Shown here: piece by piece, positions 3,518 to 28,014 of the stretch
Layout: the number at the start of each line of letters is the position of its first letter
How positions within the stretch are numbered: the stretch's first letter is position 1
Program-made: the position numbers and the translations under genes
The notes under the pieces: model-generated
The model's input: the letters and a program-made list of their open reading frames with translations, nothing else
The model's database searches: none
What the model was told of the DNA's origin: nothing
IMG/VR virus record: IMGVR_UViG_3300005613_000175
Span: 1-39,415 of that record
Origin: a virus
Reading direction: 5' to 3' (one strand)
DNA: 39,415 nt

Positions 3518-4054
3518 ATGAAAAATTGTTCAAAGTGTGGTATAGAAAAGAATGAAACAGAGTTTGTTAAGAAAAGTAAAACAGAACATGCAGCACATTG
3601 TAAAGAATGTGAAAATGCTTACAGAAGAAAAAGATATAATAAACAAAAAGAACATGAGAGGTATTTAAAAAAGAAAGCTAAAGATCCTGAAAGATGGAAC
3701 AGAATGAACAATGAAAATTCGAAACGATATTGGGCTAACAATAAAGAAAAATTTAGAGAAAGAGCTAGGAGACATGCAAAAAAAAGAAGAGAAAAATATA
3801 AACGAACATCAGAACAATTAGTTAAAGAAAGGATATATAACAGAAAATATAAAATAAAAAATAAAGAAAAGTTAAAAACTCATTATTTGGTTTTAAAGGC
3901 TTTAAAAGAAGGCAAATTAATAAAGCCTAAAAAATGTGAAAAATGTAAAAAAATAGGTGAAGTTCATGGTCATCATGAAAATTATAACAAACCATATGAT
4001 GTCATTTGGTTATGTAGGGAATGTCATGGATTTATACACAGATTACCAGTGTAA
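3518..4054 (+). CDS. HNH homing endonuclease with N-terminal Cys4 finger
   Basis: 178 aa. Residues 4-7 (CSKC) and 28-31 (CKEC) form an N-terminal zinc finger. A long Lys/Arg-rich helical middle follows, then an HNH/zinc domain: CEKC, HGHHENY, and WLCRECH. Fingers plus HNH are typical of phage free-standing homing nucleases. It is a paralogue of 1061-1540 and, like it, stands directly in front of a fibre gene (start 4076, 21 nt downstream). SD GAAGGAAGG precedes ATG. Base composition is more A-rich than the fibre genes on either side, consistent with separate origin. Confidence 0.85.
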   Translation: MKNCSKCGIEKNETEFVKKSKTEHAAHCKECENAYRRKRYNKQKEHERYLKKKAKDPERWNRMNNENSKRYWANNKEKFRERARRHAKKRREKYKRTSEQLVKERIYNRKYKIKNKEKLKTHYLVLKALKEGKLIKPKKCEKCKKIGEVHGHHENYNKPYDVIWLCRECHGFIHRLPV

Positions 4055-16721: not shown

Positions 16722-17000
16722 CTGAGGGAATCTCAGCAGACCGAAATCTGTTTGAGTAGAAAGGAGACAGGAGATATCCAGTCTTAGCTAGCACTTTCGA
16801 CCCTCTTTTTTTTAACTCAATCAACTCACAATCAGCTCATGAGCCAAATACCAAATCGGTATCAAAGTGATTGTCATTATGACTATCAGATTGATAGGTA
16901 CAAAAAAACCCCCTGAAGTTTTTATACCTCAGGAGGTCAAGGAGTTCTAGAAATGAAAAATCATCAAAAGAACTATTTAAAGTTAAAACTGGAGATTGTT
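16722..17000. other. Intergenic region between replication and recombination blocks
   Basis: Together with 16418-16721 this makes about 580 nt with no supported gene. It holds the plus-strand hairpin at 16460, the structured RNA candidate at 16598 and the minus-strand terminator at 16902. A short minus-strand frame after the terminator encodes a hydrophobic peptide (PINLIVIMTITLIPIWYLA), but it has only an internal ATG and is not called. A purine-rich GAAAGGAGACAGGAG stretch at about 16760-16774 is not followed by a good start. Confidence 0.4.
16902..16936 (-). terminator. Intrinsic terminator of recombination operon
   Basis: On the minus strand CCTCCTGA pairs with TCAGGGGG (one wobble position) around a 12-nt AT-rich loop and is followed by TTTTTTT. 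It lies 65 nt beyond the stop of the YqaJ gene (17001), the last gene of the operon starting at 19236, so it fits transcription end for that unit. Confidence 0.75.
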
Positions 17001-17903
17001 TTAAACCTCGAATGTTATTTTTACATAAGAGCTATTTTCTTTCCTAAATCTTTTTAGCTCTTCTTCAGAAATTTTCCACTCTTTCTGAACAGACTTCCAG
17101 TCTACATTACCTTTACGATTGACTTGCACAAGCTTAACCCCAGCATGTCTAAAATAAACAGACTTGCCTTCTGCTAGCTCTTTAAGCTGCTTTTCAACTG
17201 TCTTATAGTTCTTCTCAGCCTCGTTAAGCTCTTCTTTGAGATCTTTTAGCTTGTTAGCTAGCTGGTTCTCAAAGTCGTTATCATTTAAGACTAAATCTTT
17301 ATGAGTCAAAGCTGGTGGCTTCTCCGGCAGAATATTCTTAAACCAGAAATTAGTCTCTGCCGTAACTATCTTGTCTTGAAGCTTCTCATCTCTTGTAATA
17401 AGAATATATTCAGCATCTATCAACTCATTATTTTGACTGAACACAAAAAAATCTAAATGCATACCTTCCCAGTCCATAACAAGCATTGTCTTTTGACATT
17501 GGATTACATATGCCTCAGGAATTATGCCATTACGCACGTTTTCAAGTGTCTTTAAGCCTGTTGTCTTGATTTCGTGACCTTCGGTAGCCCCCTCGTTAAT
17601 ACAATCCAAAGAACAGCCCATAAACGTATGCTCTCCAGATTCATAACAGGCTGGTTTAAAGTCCTGCTGGAACTTATCGCAGATTATCTTTCTGGCTAAA
17701 GGTTCTAACTCTTTACCTCTTCGCATAATTTCATTTTCTTCTTGTTCCTTTCCAAAGATTTTTTCTTCAAATAACTGGAAAGATGTTTTCCAAGGTGAGA
17801 GCCCGAGCAAAGCTGCGGAATCTGTTCCACATAAATGAAGTCTGCGCCAACTTTTCCATTCTTCATTTCCTTGCTCCAAGTTAATCTTTTGTGGTTTATT
17901 CAT
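17001..17903 (-). CDS. YqaJ-family (lambda exonuclease-like) recombination nuclease
   Basis: 300 aa, ATG with AAGGAG 7 nt upstream. N-terminal signature EWKSWRRLHLCGTDSAALLG with SPWKT, then RRGKELEPLAR (Glu67), then the PD-(D/E)XK core: Asp100 in CSLD and Glu111-Ile-Lys113 in HEIKTT, and the later helix VIQCQKTMLVMDW. The C-terminus carries a helical arm (LKDLKEELNEAEKNYKTVEK). Such 5'-3' exonucleases resect double-strand ends and hand the strand to an annealing protein; here the ERF gene is in the same operon. The operon terminator follows. Confidence 0.88.
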   Translation of the reverse strand: MNKPQKINLEQGNEEWKSWRRLHLCGTDSAALLGLSPWKTSFQLFEEKIFGKEQEENEIMRRGKELEPLARKIICDKFQQDFKPACYESGEHTFMGCSLDCINEGATEGHEIKTTGLKTLENVRNGIIPEAYVIQCQKTMLVMDWEGMHLDFFVFSQNNELIDAEYILITRDEKLQDKIVTAETNFWFKNILPEKPPALTHKDLVLNDNDFENQLANKLKDLKEELNEAEKNYKTVEKQLKELAEGKSVYFRHAGVKLVQVNRKGNVDWKSVQKEWKISEEELKRFRKENSSYVKITFEV

Positions 17904-17926
17904 AACTAAACTCCTTTTGTTTTATT

Positions 17927-18433
17927 TTAATATTTCCATCCATATTTAAAGCTTAATCCGGGTATCCAAGAAACCCCTTCAGAGGTAAAAGTCGGAAATC
18001 TTAGATTAAGCTCTTTAATGTGTTTTTGATATTCTCTGCCTAATGTAAAAATAGGACTGATATGGCTAACAAACGCATGATCAAAATATGCTCCACCATA
18101 AGAAAAACCAAAGCTTGTCCCAGCTCCAAAATAGTCTCTTTCATTAAAATATCTTAGCCCTTTGATGTGACTCTCAACGCTACTAGCTATAAAAATTGTA
18201 GCTACATTAACGCTCAAATCAAAAGCTTGGTCTTTATCTTTAATGCGATACCCTAGCCCTACTGTAGGTAGTGGCAACGGTAAATAAATACCTGCACTCC
18301 CGTACCGAAAAGAGCTACTCTCTTTATAATCTGCTGAATCTTGATATTCTACCCATTCAGCGTTCCAATCTTCCTCTGGTTCTGCTGCAAAACCAGTGAT
18401 CATTAATAAACTAGCTACTAATAGTTTTTTCAT
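17927..18433 (-). CDS. Exported outer-membrane barrel-like protein
   Basis: 168 aa, ATG behind AAGGAGTTTAGTT. Residues 1-18 (MKKLLVASLLMITGFAAE) are a signal peptide with likely cleavage after GFA or FAA. The mature part alternates hydrophobic and polar residues in strands (IYLPLPLPTVGLGYR, FDLSVNVATIFIA, YFGAGTSFGFSYGG, HISPIFTLGREY, LSFKYGWKY) and ends in Tyr, as Gram-negative barrels do. The pattern resembles small outer-membrane-type proteins I associate with environmental Chlamydiota; this was not searched. It is sandwiched between the annealing protein and the exonuclease, a strange place for an envelope protein. A role in receptor masking or host envelope change is inference. Confidence 0.7.
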   Translation of the reverse strand: MKKLLVASLLMITGFAAEPEEDWNAEWVEYQDSADYKESSSFRYGSAGIYLPLPLPTVGLGYRIKDKDQAFDLSVNVATIFIASSVESHIKGLRYFNERDYFGAGTSFGFSYGGAYFDHAFVSHISPIFTLGREYQKHIKELNLRFPTFTSEGVSWIPGLSFKYGWKY

Positions 18434-18435
18434 AA

Positions 18436-19083
18436 CTAAACTCCTTTCTTGCTTTGTTTTTTCTTCTCAGCTTCTAAATTTAACAGCTCTTTCTTGATCG
18501 CTGCTAAATCTAACTGGCTTATGTGATTGATTTTATATACCCTCCTTAAATGCTCTTCAAAGGCTGCCACCCTGTCAACTGGCAGTTCTATTAAATAAGA
18601 CTCCGCTAAATTTATTAGCTCTTTCTTCTTCTTGAGTAGCTCTTCACTACTAGGCTGCTTATGCATCTTTTCATTTTGTAACCCTTGCGCATCATCATCC
18701 TCTTCCGCTGCAATCGATAACAAAGCCCCCAGCGAATACCTCTTAATATAAGTTATCTGTCCTCCAATCTGCTGCATGGTTTGCCCTTGAAGCGAAATAG
18801 GAAAGGTAACCTCTCCAATCTTAGAACCGTCTTTATATTGCAAATAAGTACTCAAAAGAGGCTTATCTTCTTTATAGATAATATCATGCTTGATAAGTAA
18901 ACCAGCCTCTAATAACGGCTGCTTAACACAGCTATATACCTCGGCTAGATCAGCATAAGCAAAATCCCTTCCCTGGTATTTAACTCTCTTATTAAAGCTA
19001 GGCTTCTTGAACTTCTTAGAAGCTTCAACAAACGCCTCATAAGCATTTGTAGATAATGCTTTCTCTTCTTTTTGTTTATTCAT
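18436..19083 (-). CDS. erf: ERF-family single-strand annealing protein
   Basis: 215 aa, ATG behind AAGGAGTTTAGTT. ERF signature: AYADLAEVYSCVKQPLLEAG, then the core QQIGGQITYIKRYSLGALLS and IAAEEDDDAQG. The C-terminal 80 residues are Lys/Glu-rich and helical (SEELLKKKKELINLAESYL). ERF proteins anneal complementary single strands in phage recombination and genome circularisation. Together with the YqaJ nuclease it makes a complete exonuclease/annealase pair. First main gene after the strong promoter at 19243-19271. Confidence 0.88.
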   Translation of the reverse strand: MNKQKEEKALSTNAYEAFVEASKKFKKPSFNKRVKYQGRDFAYADLAEVYSCVKQPLLEAGLLIKHDIIYKEDKPLLSTYLQYKDGSKIGEVTFPISLQGQTMQQIGGQITYIKRYSLGALLSIAAEEDDDAQGLQNEKMHKQPSSEELLKKKKELINLAESYLIELPVDRVAAFEEHLRRVYKINHISQLDLAAIKKELLNLEAEKKKQSKKGV

Positions 19084-19104
19084 AACTAAACTCCTTAGTT
19101 TAAA

Positions 19105-19119
19105 AGGGGGTTGCCCCCC
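19105..19119 (-). terminator. Attenuator-like hairpin in recombination operon leader
   Basis: On the minus strand GGGGG-GCAA-CCCCC is followed by TTTT, between promoter and the ERF start (hairpin about 19106-19119). A perfect GC stem with a short U tract in a leader suggests partial termination or mRNA protection; the tract is short, so readthrough is expected. Confidence 0.55.
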
Positions 19120-19226
19120 TCGGTTTATAGCTCTATATCATTATCGTTTAAAATTTCCCTTGCCATTTCTTCTATCGCATACCAACAAATTTCATGCTTA
19201 ACACTCCTTTATTGTGATAGATTATA

Positions 19227-21371: not shown

Positions 21372-21584
21372 ATGCGTTATTTTATGTTAGCTAGTATGTT
21401 TCTATGTTTAAGTGGCTGCGGAGTGATTAAAGGGCACTCAAATCCAATGATTAATGCAGGAATTAAAGTAATTGATAAAACAATGCCAGAAGATTCGTAT
21501 ATAGAAGAAAAAATAGAAGATGTTATCGAAGGAACTACTGGACTATCTTTAGACTTATCACCAGCTAGCCCAGAGGAGGAATAA
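21372..21584 (+). CDS. Small lipoprotein (outer spanin-like candidate)
   Basis: 70 aa. Residues 1-17 form a type II signal with lipobox LSGC (Cys16 or nearby), so the mature protein should be lipid-anchored. The rest is short and acidic, ending TGLSLDLSPASPEEE. Small phage lipoproteins of this kind can serve as outer spanins (Rz1 role) or in superinfection exclusion; it is not notably Pro-rich. Its stop TAA overlaps the next ATG. Confidence 0.7.
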   Translation: MRYFMLASMFLCLSGCGVIKGHSNPMINAGIKVIDKTMPEDSYIEEKIEDVIEGTTGLSLDLSPASPEEE

Positions 21585-22216: not shown

Positions 22217-24760
22217 TTGGAAGTGAGAGAACTTGATTTTTGTATACCTTACGAATTTACTCCTAGGCATTATCAAGAGCCTTTTTTTGATGCAATGAGA
22301 CACCAAGGTTATCGTTTTGCTATTCTATTATTTCCTAGAAGACACGGGAAAGACAAGACAGCTTTTAATTACATGGTAGAGCGTATGACGCAGGAAGTAG
22401 GCAACTATGCTTATATTTTTCCGACTGGTTCATTGGCTCGTAAGGCTGCATGGCAAAACATTGACAAAGACGGATTTAGGTTGTTAGATCATATCCCGAA
22501 AGAGTTAATCAAGCGTAAACTAGATCAACAGATGTTTATTGAACTTAATAATGGTTCTACGCTGACATTCTTTGGTTCAGACAAGCAAATATCTGTAGGC
22601 ACGAACTTTAGGGGGATAGTGTTCAGCGAGTTTGCTTTGCAGAATCCAGAGACTTATTACTATCTAAGGCCAGTAATTTTGGAGAACAAAGGCTTTATTA
22701 TTATTGCGACTTGCGTATCTCCAGATACTTTAGTTTTATCTCAGAGTGGTTTAACTAGAATCAAGAATGTTTCTTCCAGTCGTAAAGAATATACAACACT
22801 AAATAAAAGAATTTGGGGATTAGGAGGTTTTCATAAAGCAAGTGATTTTTATTATGGTGGTAAGCAAAAGACACTTAAGATAAAGCTACAAAGTGGGTAT
22901 AAGCTTGAATGTACGCCAGTTCATCCGGTTTGGAATGGTTCTAAATGGGTTAAAGCTCAAGACTGGAAGGTTGGAGACTTAGTACCTGTTCAGTATGGGC
23001 AAGATATTTGGGGAAATGGTTTTGATTGTTCTGATTTTGAAAAAAAAGGTCGTGTAACTAGGAAAGAATTATTCGATTTTTCTAATTTAGACAATGATTT
23101 TTTCTATCTACTAGGTTTAATTCATGCAGATGGTTGTTATGATAAGAATAAGATCTGTGTAACCAAGAAGAAAGATCAAGAGATAATAGATTTTTTACAT
23201 ATTAATGGTTTTAGGACATTAAAAGACGGAATGCATCACGAACTATCATGCCGTCACTTGATAGATTTTCTTGAATATGCAGGTTTCAAGCATGGTGCTA
23301 GAAATAAAACACTTTCCGACAAATTATTAAACTGTTCTAAAGAGCAAATGAAAGCGTTTATTCAAGGCTTATTTGATGGTGATGGATGTAGTGCTTCTAA
23401 TACCAAAAAACGTGGAAATATTAAGCTAACATCTACTAATGAATCTTTTCTAAATGACTTGCAAGTAGTTCTTTTAAATTTTGGGATAGTCTCATCAATT
23501 AGAACTGAAAATAAACCTCCAACTGAAAGGGTTAAGGTTTGGAGTAGGATATATAATCTTGAGATTACAGGTTATTTTGCTAATCAGTTTTATAAGAATA
23601 TTGGTTTTAGACTTGAGAGGAAGCAGCAAAACTGGAAATACGTACCTGAATCATGCAAGAAAGAGCATGGAAATATTTATCCGATTGACAGTTCAAAATT
23701 AGAAGGAATTCCTTTGCATAGGCTCACTAATCCTAATTGTATTACTAGAAGAACTATAAGAGCTTTAAACGAGAAAAAACAGCATCCTTATTTAAAGGAA
23801 CTTCTTAAAGAGAAGTTTTTCTATTCTCCTATTAAAAGCATAGAGAAATCAGAAAGTGAGGTGTTTGACTTTGTAATTCCTGATACGCATTCGTTCTTTA
23901 GCAATGGATTTGTTAGCCACAACACGCCCCGGGGCAAAAATACATTCTATGACTTATGGCAAATGGCTAAGAAGAATCCTAACTGGTTTACGCATAGGCT
24001 GACATGGAAAGAGGCGGGAGTCTTTACGGAAGAGGACATAGAAGAAGAGCGTTTAAACGGAATGTCTGAAGAGATGATACAATCCGAGTATAACACAGAG
24101 TTTGCAGGCTTGGAGGGATCTTATTATATAAGAGCATTAGACAAGATGCGCCTTAATGGGCAGATAGGGAGAGTGCCTTTTGATCCTAGTGCTAGGGTAA
24201 ATACAAGTTTTGATTTAGGAATCGGTGATAGTACGGTTATATGTTTTTTTCAAATTGTAGCAAATGAAATCCATTTTATTGATTATTATGAAGCAGACGG
24301 AGAAGCTCTTAGTCACTATGTAAATGTTATAGAGCGCAAGGCTAAGGAAAATGGTTGGTTATTAGGGCAGCATTACGCTCCTCACGACTGTCTCAACCGT
24401 GAACTCGGAACAGGTATAAGCAGGCAGCAGGTAGCTGCGGGCTTGGGTCTTAACTTTATAATCTTACCTACGCTTAAAATGAAATTAGCAGATGGTATTG
24501 AGTGTGTAAGGGGTTTATTCCCCAGAATATGGATTGATGAAATGAAATGTGAAAGATTGATTAAAGCCTTAGAGAACTATTGCAAAGACTATGATGATAA
24601 AAGACAAATCTTTAGTGAAAGACCTCGGCATAATTGGGCATCTCACGGCGCAGATTCATTTCGTTACGCCTGTTTAGCAGTTAAGAGTTTTGGAAATCAA
24701 GGGCTTGGAATGTCACGGGAAGAGCTTTACGAGATCAACGCGAGGTCTAGGCGTCTATGA
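22217..24760 (+). CDS. terL: Terminase large subunit, intein-containing
   Basis: 847 aa precursor, about 443 aa after splicing. The TTG start has GGAAGGAG 6 nt upstream. ATPase: RRHGKDKT Walker A-like (41-48), IVFSEF Walker B region, and coupling motif TPRGKN, split by the intein right before its Thr. Nuclease: SFDLGIGDSTVICFFQ, HYAPHDCLNRELGTGISR, and HNWASHGADSFRYACLA near the end, the usual RNase H-type terminase features. It packages DNA into the procapsid through the portal. No frameshift is seen, so the protein should be active only after intein removal. Confidence 0.93.
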   Translation: MEVRELDFCIPYEFTPRHYQEPFFDAMRHQGYRFAILLFPRRHGKDKTAFNYMVERMTQEVGNYAYIFPTGSLARKAAWQNIDKDGFRLLDHIPKELIKRKLDQQMFIELNNGSTLTFFGSDKQISVGTNFRGIVFSEFALQNPETYYYLRPVILENKGFIIIATCVSPDTLVLSQSGLTRIKNVSSSRKEYTTLNKRIWGLGGFHKASDFYYGGKQKTLKIKLQSGYKLECTPVHPVWNGSKWVKAQDWKVGDLVPVQYGQDIWGNGFDCSDFEKKGRVTRKELFDFSNLDNDFFYLLGLIHADGCYDKNKICVTKKKDQEIIDFLHINGFRTLKDGMHHELSCRHLIDFLEYAGFKHGARNKTLSDKLLNCSKEQMKAFIQGLFDGDGCSASNTKKRGNIKLTSTNESFLNDLQVVLLNFGIVSSIRTENKPPTERVKVWSRIYNLEITGYFANQFYKNIGFRLERKQQNWKYVPESCKKEHGNIYPIDSSKLEGIPLHRLTNPNCITRRTIRALNEKKQHPYLKELLKEKFFYSPIKSIEKSESEVFDFVIPDTHSFFSNGFVSHNTPRGKNTFYDLWQMAKKNPNWFTHRLTWKEAGVFTEEDIEEERLNGMSEEMIQSEYNTEFAGLEGSYYIRALDKMRLNGQIGRVPFDPSARVNTSFDLGIGDSTVICFFQIVANEIHFIDYYEADGEALSHYVNVIERKAKENGWLLGQHYAPHDCLNRELGTGISRQQVAAGLGLNFIILPTLKMKLADGIECVRGLFPRIWIDEMKCERLIKALENYCKDYDDKRQIFSERPRHNWASHGADSFRYACLAVKSFGNQGLGMSREELYEINARSRRL
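22712..23923 (+). mobile_element. LAGLIDADG intein in terminase
   Basis: Residues 166-569 (404 aa). It starts with Cys (CVSPDTLVL, block A), block B ECTPVHPVW, two endonuclease motifs LLGLIHADG and FIQGLFDGDG, and ends FVIPDTHSFFSNGFVSHN with the splicing His-Asn. The next residue is Thr, a valid +1 nucleophile. All splicing and nuclease residues appear present, so it should both splice and home. The insertion splits the conserved ATP-TPRG motif of the terminase, a typical active-site location for inteins. Confidence 0.92.
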
Positions 24761-25432: not shown

Positions 25433-25921
25433 TTAACTCTTTTTTTTTCTTGGGCTTCTATTTTGATATTGTTGTTCTCTAGTAGCCCATCTACAGTTTT
25501 CTTTAGAATAACCTTTGTCGTTATCGATTCTATCAATTGTAAGGTTTTTTGGCCTTTTACCCATATCTTTATAGAATCGAAGAAAACCATTCTTCCATTC
25601 ATCACAAACCGTTATTCCTTTAGCTCCATACCATTTATAGCCTTTTATATTTTTGTTATAGCAGCGCGTTTTCATAGATCTCCATATTCTATATTCGATC
25701 GAGTTACTCATATTATGAGATTTATTAGGAGGGTTGGCGCTTCCACATTTACGGCATTGCATCGATTGTCCACTTTGCAAATTAGAACTATAGTGAATTT
25801 TGATTGTTCCACATTCGCATTGGCAAATCCATCTAGGTTTTGTGTATTTTTTATGAGGAGCTCTTTTCAGAACTTTCCATTTTCCGATTTTTTTACCAGT
25901 AAAATCAATAAGTTTAGGCAT
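25433..25921 (-). CDS. HNH endonuclease, antisense to head operon
   Basis: 162 aa. N-terminal zinc ribbon (KIGKWKVLKRAPHKK, ICQCECGT, then MQCRKCGSANP) followed by the domain typical of phage HNH homing nucleases: YRIWRSMKTRCYN, YKWYGAKGITVCDEW, DMGKRPKNLTIDRIDNDKGY, NCRWATREQQYQN. The DRIDN-x-GY...NCRWAT segment carries the catalytic His/Asn-type core variant. It is the only minus-strand gene in a 19-kb plus-strand block, directly before the portal, and unrelated in sequence to the two HNH genes in the fibre cluster. Confidence 0.88.
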   Translation of the reverse strand: MPKLIDFTGKKIGKWKVLKRAPHKKYTKPRWICQCECGTIKIHYSSNLQSGQSMQCRKCGSANPPNKSHNMSNSIEYRIWRSMKTRCYNKNIKGYKWYGAKGITVCDEWKNGFLRFYKDMGKRPKNLTIDRIDNDKGYSKENCRWATREQQYQNRSPRKKKS

Positions 25922-25965
25922 ACAAATATTATGGCATACAAGCCTTGTTTAACGCAAGAGGCAGC

Positions 25966-28014
25966 ATGAGAAAAGACGATTATACGCTGAAAAAAGACTT
26001 TGATGACTATTACACTGAAGGCTTGGCTTGCTGGTCAACCGCTTATGAAGAGATGAACATCGACGTACGAATGTTTCTCGGAGATCAGTTTTCCGATACC
26101 GATAAAGCATTATTAGCCGAAGAAGGTCGCAGTGCCTATATCTACAATTATCTACAAAGGAATATCAATTTAGTCACAGGCTATCAGCGTAAAAACCGTC
26201 TGGGGTTTGGTATTGATCCTCAGAGCGGAGAGGATATGCAGGTAGCTGATGTTTTAGAAGACTTGCTTATCTGGCAGGCTCAAAAAAGCAATTTCTACAA
26301 TGTTTTTAGTGATGGTTTTGAAGAAGCAGCAATTACTGGCTGTTCTATGTTGTCTTTTGGAATAGATTACTCAAAAGATCCTATTAATGGGGATATTATT
26401 TGTCGGGCAGAGCCATTTGAAAGTTTTATGATCGATCCTCATTTTACGCAAATGGATTTATCTGACTGTAGATTTTTCATGCGCCGTAAATATGTAGATA
26501 AGGCACAGGCACAGCAGCTTTTGCCTATGGCGAAAAAAGATATAGATTCTTTAGTACCTGGCGTTCCTGACAATAAGTTTTCTTATATGAGTTATTCCCA
26601 GAACAGATATGAAAATACTCTTTATGCCTTAGATGAAATGTACACCTCTGTTTCTAAAAAAGTTGATTATTTAACCCATAGACAGACAGGACAGCAAATA
26701 AAGTGGAAGGGCAAAAAAGATGGGTTGAAATACTTATTATCAGTCGATCCATATTGGGTTCATACTGTTGGTTATGAGCCAAGCATTGAATACACAACAT
26801 ACCTTCAAAACGAGCCGATGTATAACGGAAATGATCCATTTGGCATAGATGATTATCCATGCGTACCTTTTTTATGGATTATGCGACCTCAATATAACGA
26901 TTATCGCTACAAGATTCAGGGCATGATAAGAGTGGCTAGAGACCCACAGGAAGAGTATAACAAAGTCCGCTCTACCATGGTTGATATTCTTAGATCACAG
27001 CCTAATAGTGGCTGGCAGATCGAAGAAGGAGCAGTTAAGAATCCTAAAGATTTAACGAAGGTTGGGCAAGGACAAATTATCGAAATGAGTCCTGGAAGAT
27101 CAATTCAGGCAGCTCAAAAGATTCAGCCAGCCGATTTATCTCAAGGAATCGTTAGTTTATCTCAACAGCTCAATACTGACATCTTACAGTTACCTGGTTT
27201 GAACGAAGAGGCATTAGGAGTAGCAGAGCAGGGCAATACCGAGATTTCTGGAACTCTAGCTAAGATGAGGACAGCTAATAGCATCACAATTCTAAAAAGT
27301 GCATTTGATAAAGCAGAACTAACTCAAAAGCTAGCAGGGCAGAAACTTTTAAAAATGATGCTGGTTAATTACACGCCTCAAAAATTAAGTCAGATAGTAG
27401 GCAGACCAATCCCACAGATTGATATTGATAAGGCAATGAAATACGACATTGTAGTTAAAGAAGCTCTACTCACAGACACTCAAAAAACCTTGTCTTATGT
27501 ACAGGCATTGCAAGCTAAGGCAGCAGGCATAAACATTCCTGACGGCTTTGTTCTTCAGCAAATGCCTATCGCTAACAAGTCTGAGTTAATGGAAGCCTAC
27601 AGCCAAGAAGCTAAACAAGCTCAAGAGCAGCAGGCTAAGGTTAATGAGCAAGAGCAAATGCAGTTAAGACTTCAGAACTCAGAGATTGTGCATAAGTTAT
27701 CACTAGCCGAGCAGCAAAGAGAGACAGCGGTATCTAGGCAGGCTCTAGCACAGCAGCACTTAGCTAACAGCTATGCTGACAGGGCTAAAGGGCTTCTAGA
27801 CAATGTTAAGGCAGCCAAAGAGATACAGGGCATGGAACAAGAGCAAGTAATGAAAGGATTGGCTTTTCTGTTGCAGCTTCAAGACATGGCAGGCCAGAAA
27901 GAAACATCACAAGTAAAAGACACTTCTCAAGAGAGTGCTAAAGATGTTGTAGCTTTCAATCAGCTTAACAAGATGGCTGGGCTAAATACAATGCTTGGAG
28001 GTTCTAATGGTTAA
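25966..28014 (+). CDS. Portal protein (P22-type)
   Basis: 682 aa from ATG 25966 (AGAGG upstream; a TTG further up is unlikely). P22-like portal features: FLGDQFSDTDKALLAEEGRS, then YIYNYLQRNINLVTGYQRKN, PFESFMIDPHF, the RPQYNDYRYKIQGMIRVARD helix segment and a long Gln-rich helical C-terminus (EAKQAQEQQAKVNEQEQMQL). Twelve copies form the DNA channel at one capsid vertex, docking terminase and neck proteins. P22-type portals point to a short-tailed phage. The following gene overlaps its stop by 8 nt. Confidence 0.9.
   Translation: MRKDDYTLKKDFDDYYTEGLACWSTAYEEMNIDVRMFLGDQFSDTDKALLAEEGRSAYIYNYLQRNINLVTGYQRKNRLGFGIDPQSGEDMQVADVLEDLLIWQAQKSNFYNVFSDGFEEAAITGCSMLSFGIDYSKDPINGDIICRAEPFESFMIDPHFTQMDLSDCRFFMRRKYVDKAQAQQLLPMAKKDIDSLVPGVPDNKFSYMSYSQNRYENTLYALDEMYTSVSKKVDYLTHRQTGQQIKWKGKKDGLKYLLSVDPYWVHTVGYEPSIEYTTYLQNEPMYNGNDPFGIDDYPCVPFLWIMRPQYNDYRYKIQGMIRVARDPQEEYNKVRSTMVDILRSQPNSGWQIEEGAVKNPKDLTKVGQGQIIEMSPGRSIQAAQKIQPADLSQGIVSLSQQLNTDILQLPGLNEEALGVAEQGNTEISGTLAKMRTANSITILKSAFDKAELTQKLAGQKLLKMMLVNYTPQKLSQIVGRPIPQIDIDKAMKYDIVVKEALLTDTQKTLSYVQALQAKAAGINIPDGFVLQQMPIANKSELMEAYSQEAKQAQEQQAKVNEQEQMQLRLQNSEIVHKLSLAEQQRETAVSRQALAQQHLANSYADRAKGLLDNVKAAKEIQGMEQEQVMKGLAFLLQLQDMAGQKETSQVKDTSQESAKDVVAFNQLNKMAGLNTMLGGSNG

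Follow-up and report, generated by a model that had tools for sequence, protein, structure and literature searches.

A predicted outer-membrane barrel of a Chlamydiota protein family encoded in the recombination operon of a likely chlamydial phage

The virus genome analyzed here, a complete IMG/VR record of 39,415 bases (the window in what follows), encodes a 168-aa protein that is very probably an exported outer-membrane barrel of a Chlamydiota family, acting at the chlamydial cell surface. The barrel, its family, and its operon are well supported, and the phage probably uses the protein to alter the surface of the infected cell. As to what this alteration achieves, we favor superinfection exclusion or receptor masking, a serious possibility that we place somewhat short of an even chance. 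The open reading frame, first recognized from the sequence itself, is present on the minus strand, running from 18433 to 17927, while the plus strand of the same interval is rich in stops and closed as a reading frame. No exact terminal repeat of 12 to 200 bases was found in the window.

The barrel gene is the second of three in a compact minus-strand operon, preceded by an ERF single-strand annealing protein (18436-19083; PF04404, E = 3.8e-13; phrog_2324, 5.6e-25) and followed by a YqaJ/RecE-like nuclease (17001-17903; PF09588, E = 1.4e-19; phrog_434, RecE-like, 1.1e-47). These Pfam and PHROG matches of both neighbors agree with the placement between an annealase and a nuclease given in the initial annotation, which had also described a ribosome-site cassette common to the three genes and a perfect promoter. 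The cassette, AGGAGTTTAGTTATGA, is identical at 16 of 16 bases at all three starts (19080-19095 for ERF, 18430-18445 for the barrel gene, and 17900-17915 for YqaJ, all minus strand), and these are its only occurrences in the window, where 0.06 would be expected by chance even with 2 mismatches permitted. Its 14-base core was absent from the other loci compared. The promoter is of the sigma-70 type, TTGACA-17-TATAAT, matching at 12 of 12 positions upstream of ERF (19271-19243, minus strand), and is the single perfect copy in the window versus 0.03 expected. A terminator-like hairpin of 13 pairs with a T run lies after YqaJ (16907-16938, minus strand). Promoter, cassette, and terminator all belong to the operon, and in having no promoter or terminator of its own, the barrel gene does not resemble a moron. 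We also observed a G-rich/C-rich hairpin (GGGGGGCAACCCCC followed by TTTT; 19098-19125, minus strand) downstream of the perfect promoter and ahead of the ERF ribosome site. It could act as an attenuator of the operon, in which case antitermination would be implied; the leader upstream of ERF as a whole showed no significant folding (z = -1.65).

The N-terminus of the protein (residues 1-16, MKKLLVASLLMITGFA; 18386-18433, minus strand; cleavage site placed by eye) resembles a signal peptide and is the most hydrophobic among the 41 window genes scored, with a 9-residue mean of 2.98. The barrel domain, delimited by AlphaFold2 strands and pLDDT, spans residues 40-168 (17930-18316, minus strand) and ends in an alternating C-terminal beta-signal, LSFKYGWKY, which 0.28% of shuffled versions of the protein reach. 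Among 35 aligned sequences of the family, the beta-signal is found in 28 and an aromatic C-terminal residue in 33. Judged by hydrophobicity and pattern, the protein thus carries both the signal peptide and the beta-signal of an eight-stranded outer-membrane barrel, and both the export signal and the terminal aromatic residue proposed at the outset have stood. The barrel-like alternation of strands that had been read by eye fared differently, since it was not above that of shuffled sequences (815 of 5000 shuffles reach it), and strand amphipathicity was dropped as evidence for this reason. The barrel therefore rests on the homologs and the structural model, not on a visible pattern.

Given the 35-row alignment, AlphaFold2 predicted an eight-stranded barrel of OmpA/OmpX-like topology, with strands at residues 40-51, 55-66, 69-80, 83-95, 100-113, 121-134, 138-145, and 159-167. 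Ten-residue blocks have pLDDT values of 92-98 from residue 41 onward, except for one loop block at 75; when run with no homologs, AlphaFold2 fails on this protein (pLDDT 29). The prediction gave no soluble, non-barrel fold of the kind that would have contradicted the initial annotation. Foldseek searches with the model returned OmpA, OprF, OmpX, OmpW, Ail, and NspA as the nearest solved structures, and the top matches in the viral library BFVD include phage proteins annotated as outer-membrane barrels. The predicted likeness to the OmpA transmembrane domain, OprF, OmpX, Ail, and NspA lies in the eight-stranded fold (Foldseek E = 2e-4 to 9e-3), with 9%-14% identity over the structural alignment and TM-scores of 0.4-0.67, whereas the window protein has no sequence-profile match to them and shorter predicted outer loops. 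A profile search against solved structures gave chance-level matches only, to immunoglobulin-type chains. We also checked whether trimmed outer loops are a general rule of phage copies, and this was not supported.

The protein itself has no Pfam or NCBIfam match and no significant PHROG match, and the 35 aligned sequences have none in Pfam or NCBIfam, save for one weak, unrelated match; none of them matches the curated sequence families of OmpA, Ail-OmpX, or Lom. Close-relative scans of IMG/VR and genome contigs with the barrel as query, tblastn of named phages with three family members, and tblastn of plasmids with one member likewise returned no match. Homologs were reached only by whole-genome searches in the Chlamydiota, the intracellular phylum that had been guessed beforehand, and by profile. 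The single sequence matched 62 of 234 Chlamydiota genomes at E <= 0.1, the best value being 2.2e-17, and most of the matches lay in open frames some 160-240 aa long. A profile search extended the family to 89 of the 234, with up to four copies per genome and some tandem pairs. The same profile found nothing in three outgroups, namely the phylum that includes a Phycisphaerae (planctomycete) assembly (199 genomes), the phylum that includes a Kiritimatiellae assembly (241), and the class that includes a Halomonas (Gammaproteobacteria) genome (229). Across the Chlamydiota and these outgroups, the latter comprising 669 genomes, the family is restricted to the Chlamydiota and phages. Several large chromosomal contigs carry copies, among them the complete chromosome of a Simkaniaceae member (L008/G001) and a near-full-length contig of a 1.5 Mb genome (G160), so the family is not explained by contamination.

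Within the family alignment (A1; proteins of about 160-230 aa), homology is full-length and the G-Y-R, Y-x-G-x-G, and C-terminal YGxxF/Y motifs are conserved. Members for which sequence is available open with what resembles a signal peptide, and almost all have an aromatic last residue. The window copy shares these ends and the invariant Y44, G61, R63, Y101, G105, G132, and G165, and differs in being phage-encoded, in lying in a recombination operon, and in having only 20%-34% identity to other members. A pattern scan drawn from A1 was given up because the alignment is too diverse. One could suppose, from its cytoplasmic operon partners, that the protein is an accessory recombination factor working with ERF and YqaJ and forms no membrane barrel. 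We consider this very improbable in view of the signal-peptide-like start, the beta-signal, and the barrel model, and the homologs are not recombination factors, nor do the chromosomal ones sit beside recombination genes in the contexts read. As a separate observation, the contig of a near homolog in a chlamydial genome (L156:4487-7565; G191:C141) carries a tandem of three exported, outer-membrane-like proteins of 335-350 aa.

Evidence for the phage lineage and its host comes from the portal protein (25945-28014, plus strand), which is of the P22 type as read from its phrog_156 assignment and its matches to named phages, the best of which show ~23% identity over most of the protein. Relatives of the portal were found in 11 of the 234 Chlamydiota genomes, mostly at 25%-37% identity, and several of their contigs are 35-41 kb long and have capsid and tail genes in common with the window. 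A chlamydial host is likely on the strength of both the barrel family and the occurrence of these relatives in chlamydial assemblies, the portal-bearing contigs being parts of metagenome-assembled genomes whose bins may be imperfect. Neither the ERF nor the YqaJ sequence, used singly to scan IMG/VR, retrieved a relative. The window ORFs scanned include no integrase, which weakens the case for lysogenic conversion and favors a role in lytic growth.

All related phage contigs in the chlamydial assemblies lack the barrel gene, so it is dispensable for the lineage, and no similar candidate with a signal peptide and an aromatic end was recognized on these contigs. On chlamydial contigs that carry an annealase homolog together with a YqaJ homolog, the two genes abut or overlap (L165, L166, L167, L168, L169, and L170), and in L172, the one with a recognizable ERF, two short ORFs lacking a signal peptide lie between them. 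The YqaJ ORF of this last contig (L172:2435-3244; G149:C2) starts with a long Ala-Met low-complexity run, read as Ser-His repeats on the opposite strand, an unusual expanded DNA repeat at a gene start. Whole-record searches of IMG/VR relatives, found by portal alignment, detected the barrel family in 5 of 44, using a profile that included the L278 and L248 sequences. In L278 (E = 6e-36) the gene is encoded on the opposite strand in the terminase-portal interval, an interval it also occupies in L248 and L251, which are the same phage (E of about 3e-29), and in L254 and L280 (E = 5e-13 and 2e-9) it is beside the structural-gene end near a serine resolvase. The chromosomal profile A1 had been the first to pick up L278 and L248 (E = 2.5e-23 and 1.3e-8), and it also matches the L254 and L280 copies (9e-14 and 2.5e-11). 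Counting the window, the family occurs in five different phages, at three kinds of genome position. In being absent from related phages and present in a few at different sites, the gene does have the distribution of a moron, and its recurrence at other genome sites in the lineage points to phage use and not to accident. A serine resolvase gene near the barrel gene in two IMG/VR relatives (L295:6457-7038; L297:6067-6633) is a possible route for cargo exchange.

This distribution also bears on the idea that the barrel is a passenger, a host gene picked up recently and useless to the phage. Its absence from most relatives examined and a GC3 of 0.24, below the 0.36 and 0.38 of its operon neighbors, are what one might expect of such a gene, but the ORF is intact and has the operon's own ribosome-site cassette, the same family occurs in four further phages, and the sequence is about 66%-80% diverged from every known copy. 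Because of this divergence, it is not a recent acquisition from any sampled source, and we regard a useless passenger as quite unlikely. Over 130 residues, the L278 copy and the window protein share 25% identity, and in a phylogenetic tree the two group with four copies from chlamydial genomes (support 89/90). A single phage clade of barrels was neither shown nor rejected (AU p = 0.067 with three copies, 0.145 with two).

We propose that a member of the chlamydial small eight-stranded barrel family entered the phage genome and now resides in the early recombination operon. The protein would be made early, leave the cytoplasm through Sec, and depend on the host BAM machinery to fold into the outer membrane, changing the cell surface during phage replication. 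There it may displace, pair with, or cover host surface barrels that serve as receptor, and the phage would benefit by not losing further particles to a doomed cell. Exclusion or masking leads among the possible outcomes because of the early-gene position, the lack of any lysogeny module seen, and the capacity of a host-family barrel to replace a receptor or its partner; the short outer loops of the model would limit steric masking. Known phage exclusion proteins offer an analogy. The Cor proteins of phages phi80 and N15 are listed as receptor inactivators (exclusion review, PMC11436027). T5 Llp also inactivates its receptor. Neither Llp nor Cor is known to be a barrel, whereas the window protein is predicted to be one. 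The likeness would be confined to the outcome proposed here, in which an envelope protein made by the phage blocks adsorption.

Other effects at the surface have to be weighed. Surface conversion in lysogens has been attributed to lambda Lom and Ail-like proteins, and the window gene is similar to the Lom type and to the BFVD barrels in being a phage gene for an outer-membrane barrel, with a matching fold in BFVD. It differs from Lom in sequence family, in host phylum, and in location, the known genes occupying a lysogen-expressed accessory site and this one an early recombination operon. A conversion that helps the bacterium, altering its interaction with the eukaryotic host or inclusion through adhesion or resistance to stress or immunity, would suit the Ail and OmpX fold matches and the multi-copy, surface-type host family. 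We nevertheless think it rather unlikely, as no stable lysogen is apparent from the ORFs scanned, the predicted outer loops are short, unlike those of typical adhesins, and the operon is of a lytic type. We give similarly low weight to envelope maintenance, in which the barrel would stabilize or supplement the outer membrane during host shutdown or alter its permeability, with no action on a receptor. A small barrel with short predicted loops, expected early from the operon promoter, would fit such a role, but eight-stranded barrels generally have no open pore, and most related phage records examined do without the barrel. Returning to exclusion or masking, a broader version is more doubtful, namely that one chlamydial barrel family recurs, at different genome sites, in the tailed phages that infect chlamydia-like bacteria and supplies early lytic mimics of a receptor or its partner, closing the cell to further phages.

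To our knowledge, those phages of chlamydiae that have been isolated are microviruses, small and with single-stranded DNA, and only these surfaced in a search of a literature library, which returned no study of tailed chlamydial phages and none on the barrel family. The window and the phages related to it indicate a lineage with double-stranded DNA that is linked to the Chlamydiota, with one host surface-barrel family as a probable contact point between phage and bacterium. This family has no curated model despite its presence in more than a third of the chlamydial genomes searched, and its phage-borne members point to candidate receptor-related proteins in obligately intracellular bacteria, making these surface proteins testable.

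Several other features of the window were observed. The terminase large subunit (22217-24760, plus strand; 847 aa) contains an apparent intein with a homing-endonuclease-like part, roughly at residues 166-569, and the terminases of relatives match only both flanks. Look-alikes of HNH-type free-standing endonucleases occur at 1061-1540 and 3518-4054 (plus strand) and 25433-25921 (minus strand), with relatives on chlamydial phage contigs. A 70-aa protein at 21372-21584 (plus strand), with no Pfam or PHROG match, has a lipoprotein-like start (MRYFMLASMFLCLSGC) and the second most hydrophobic N-terminus among the window genes scored, and could be an outer-membrane lipoprotein of the spanin or exclusion type.
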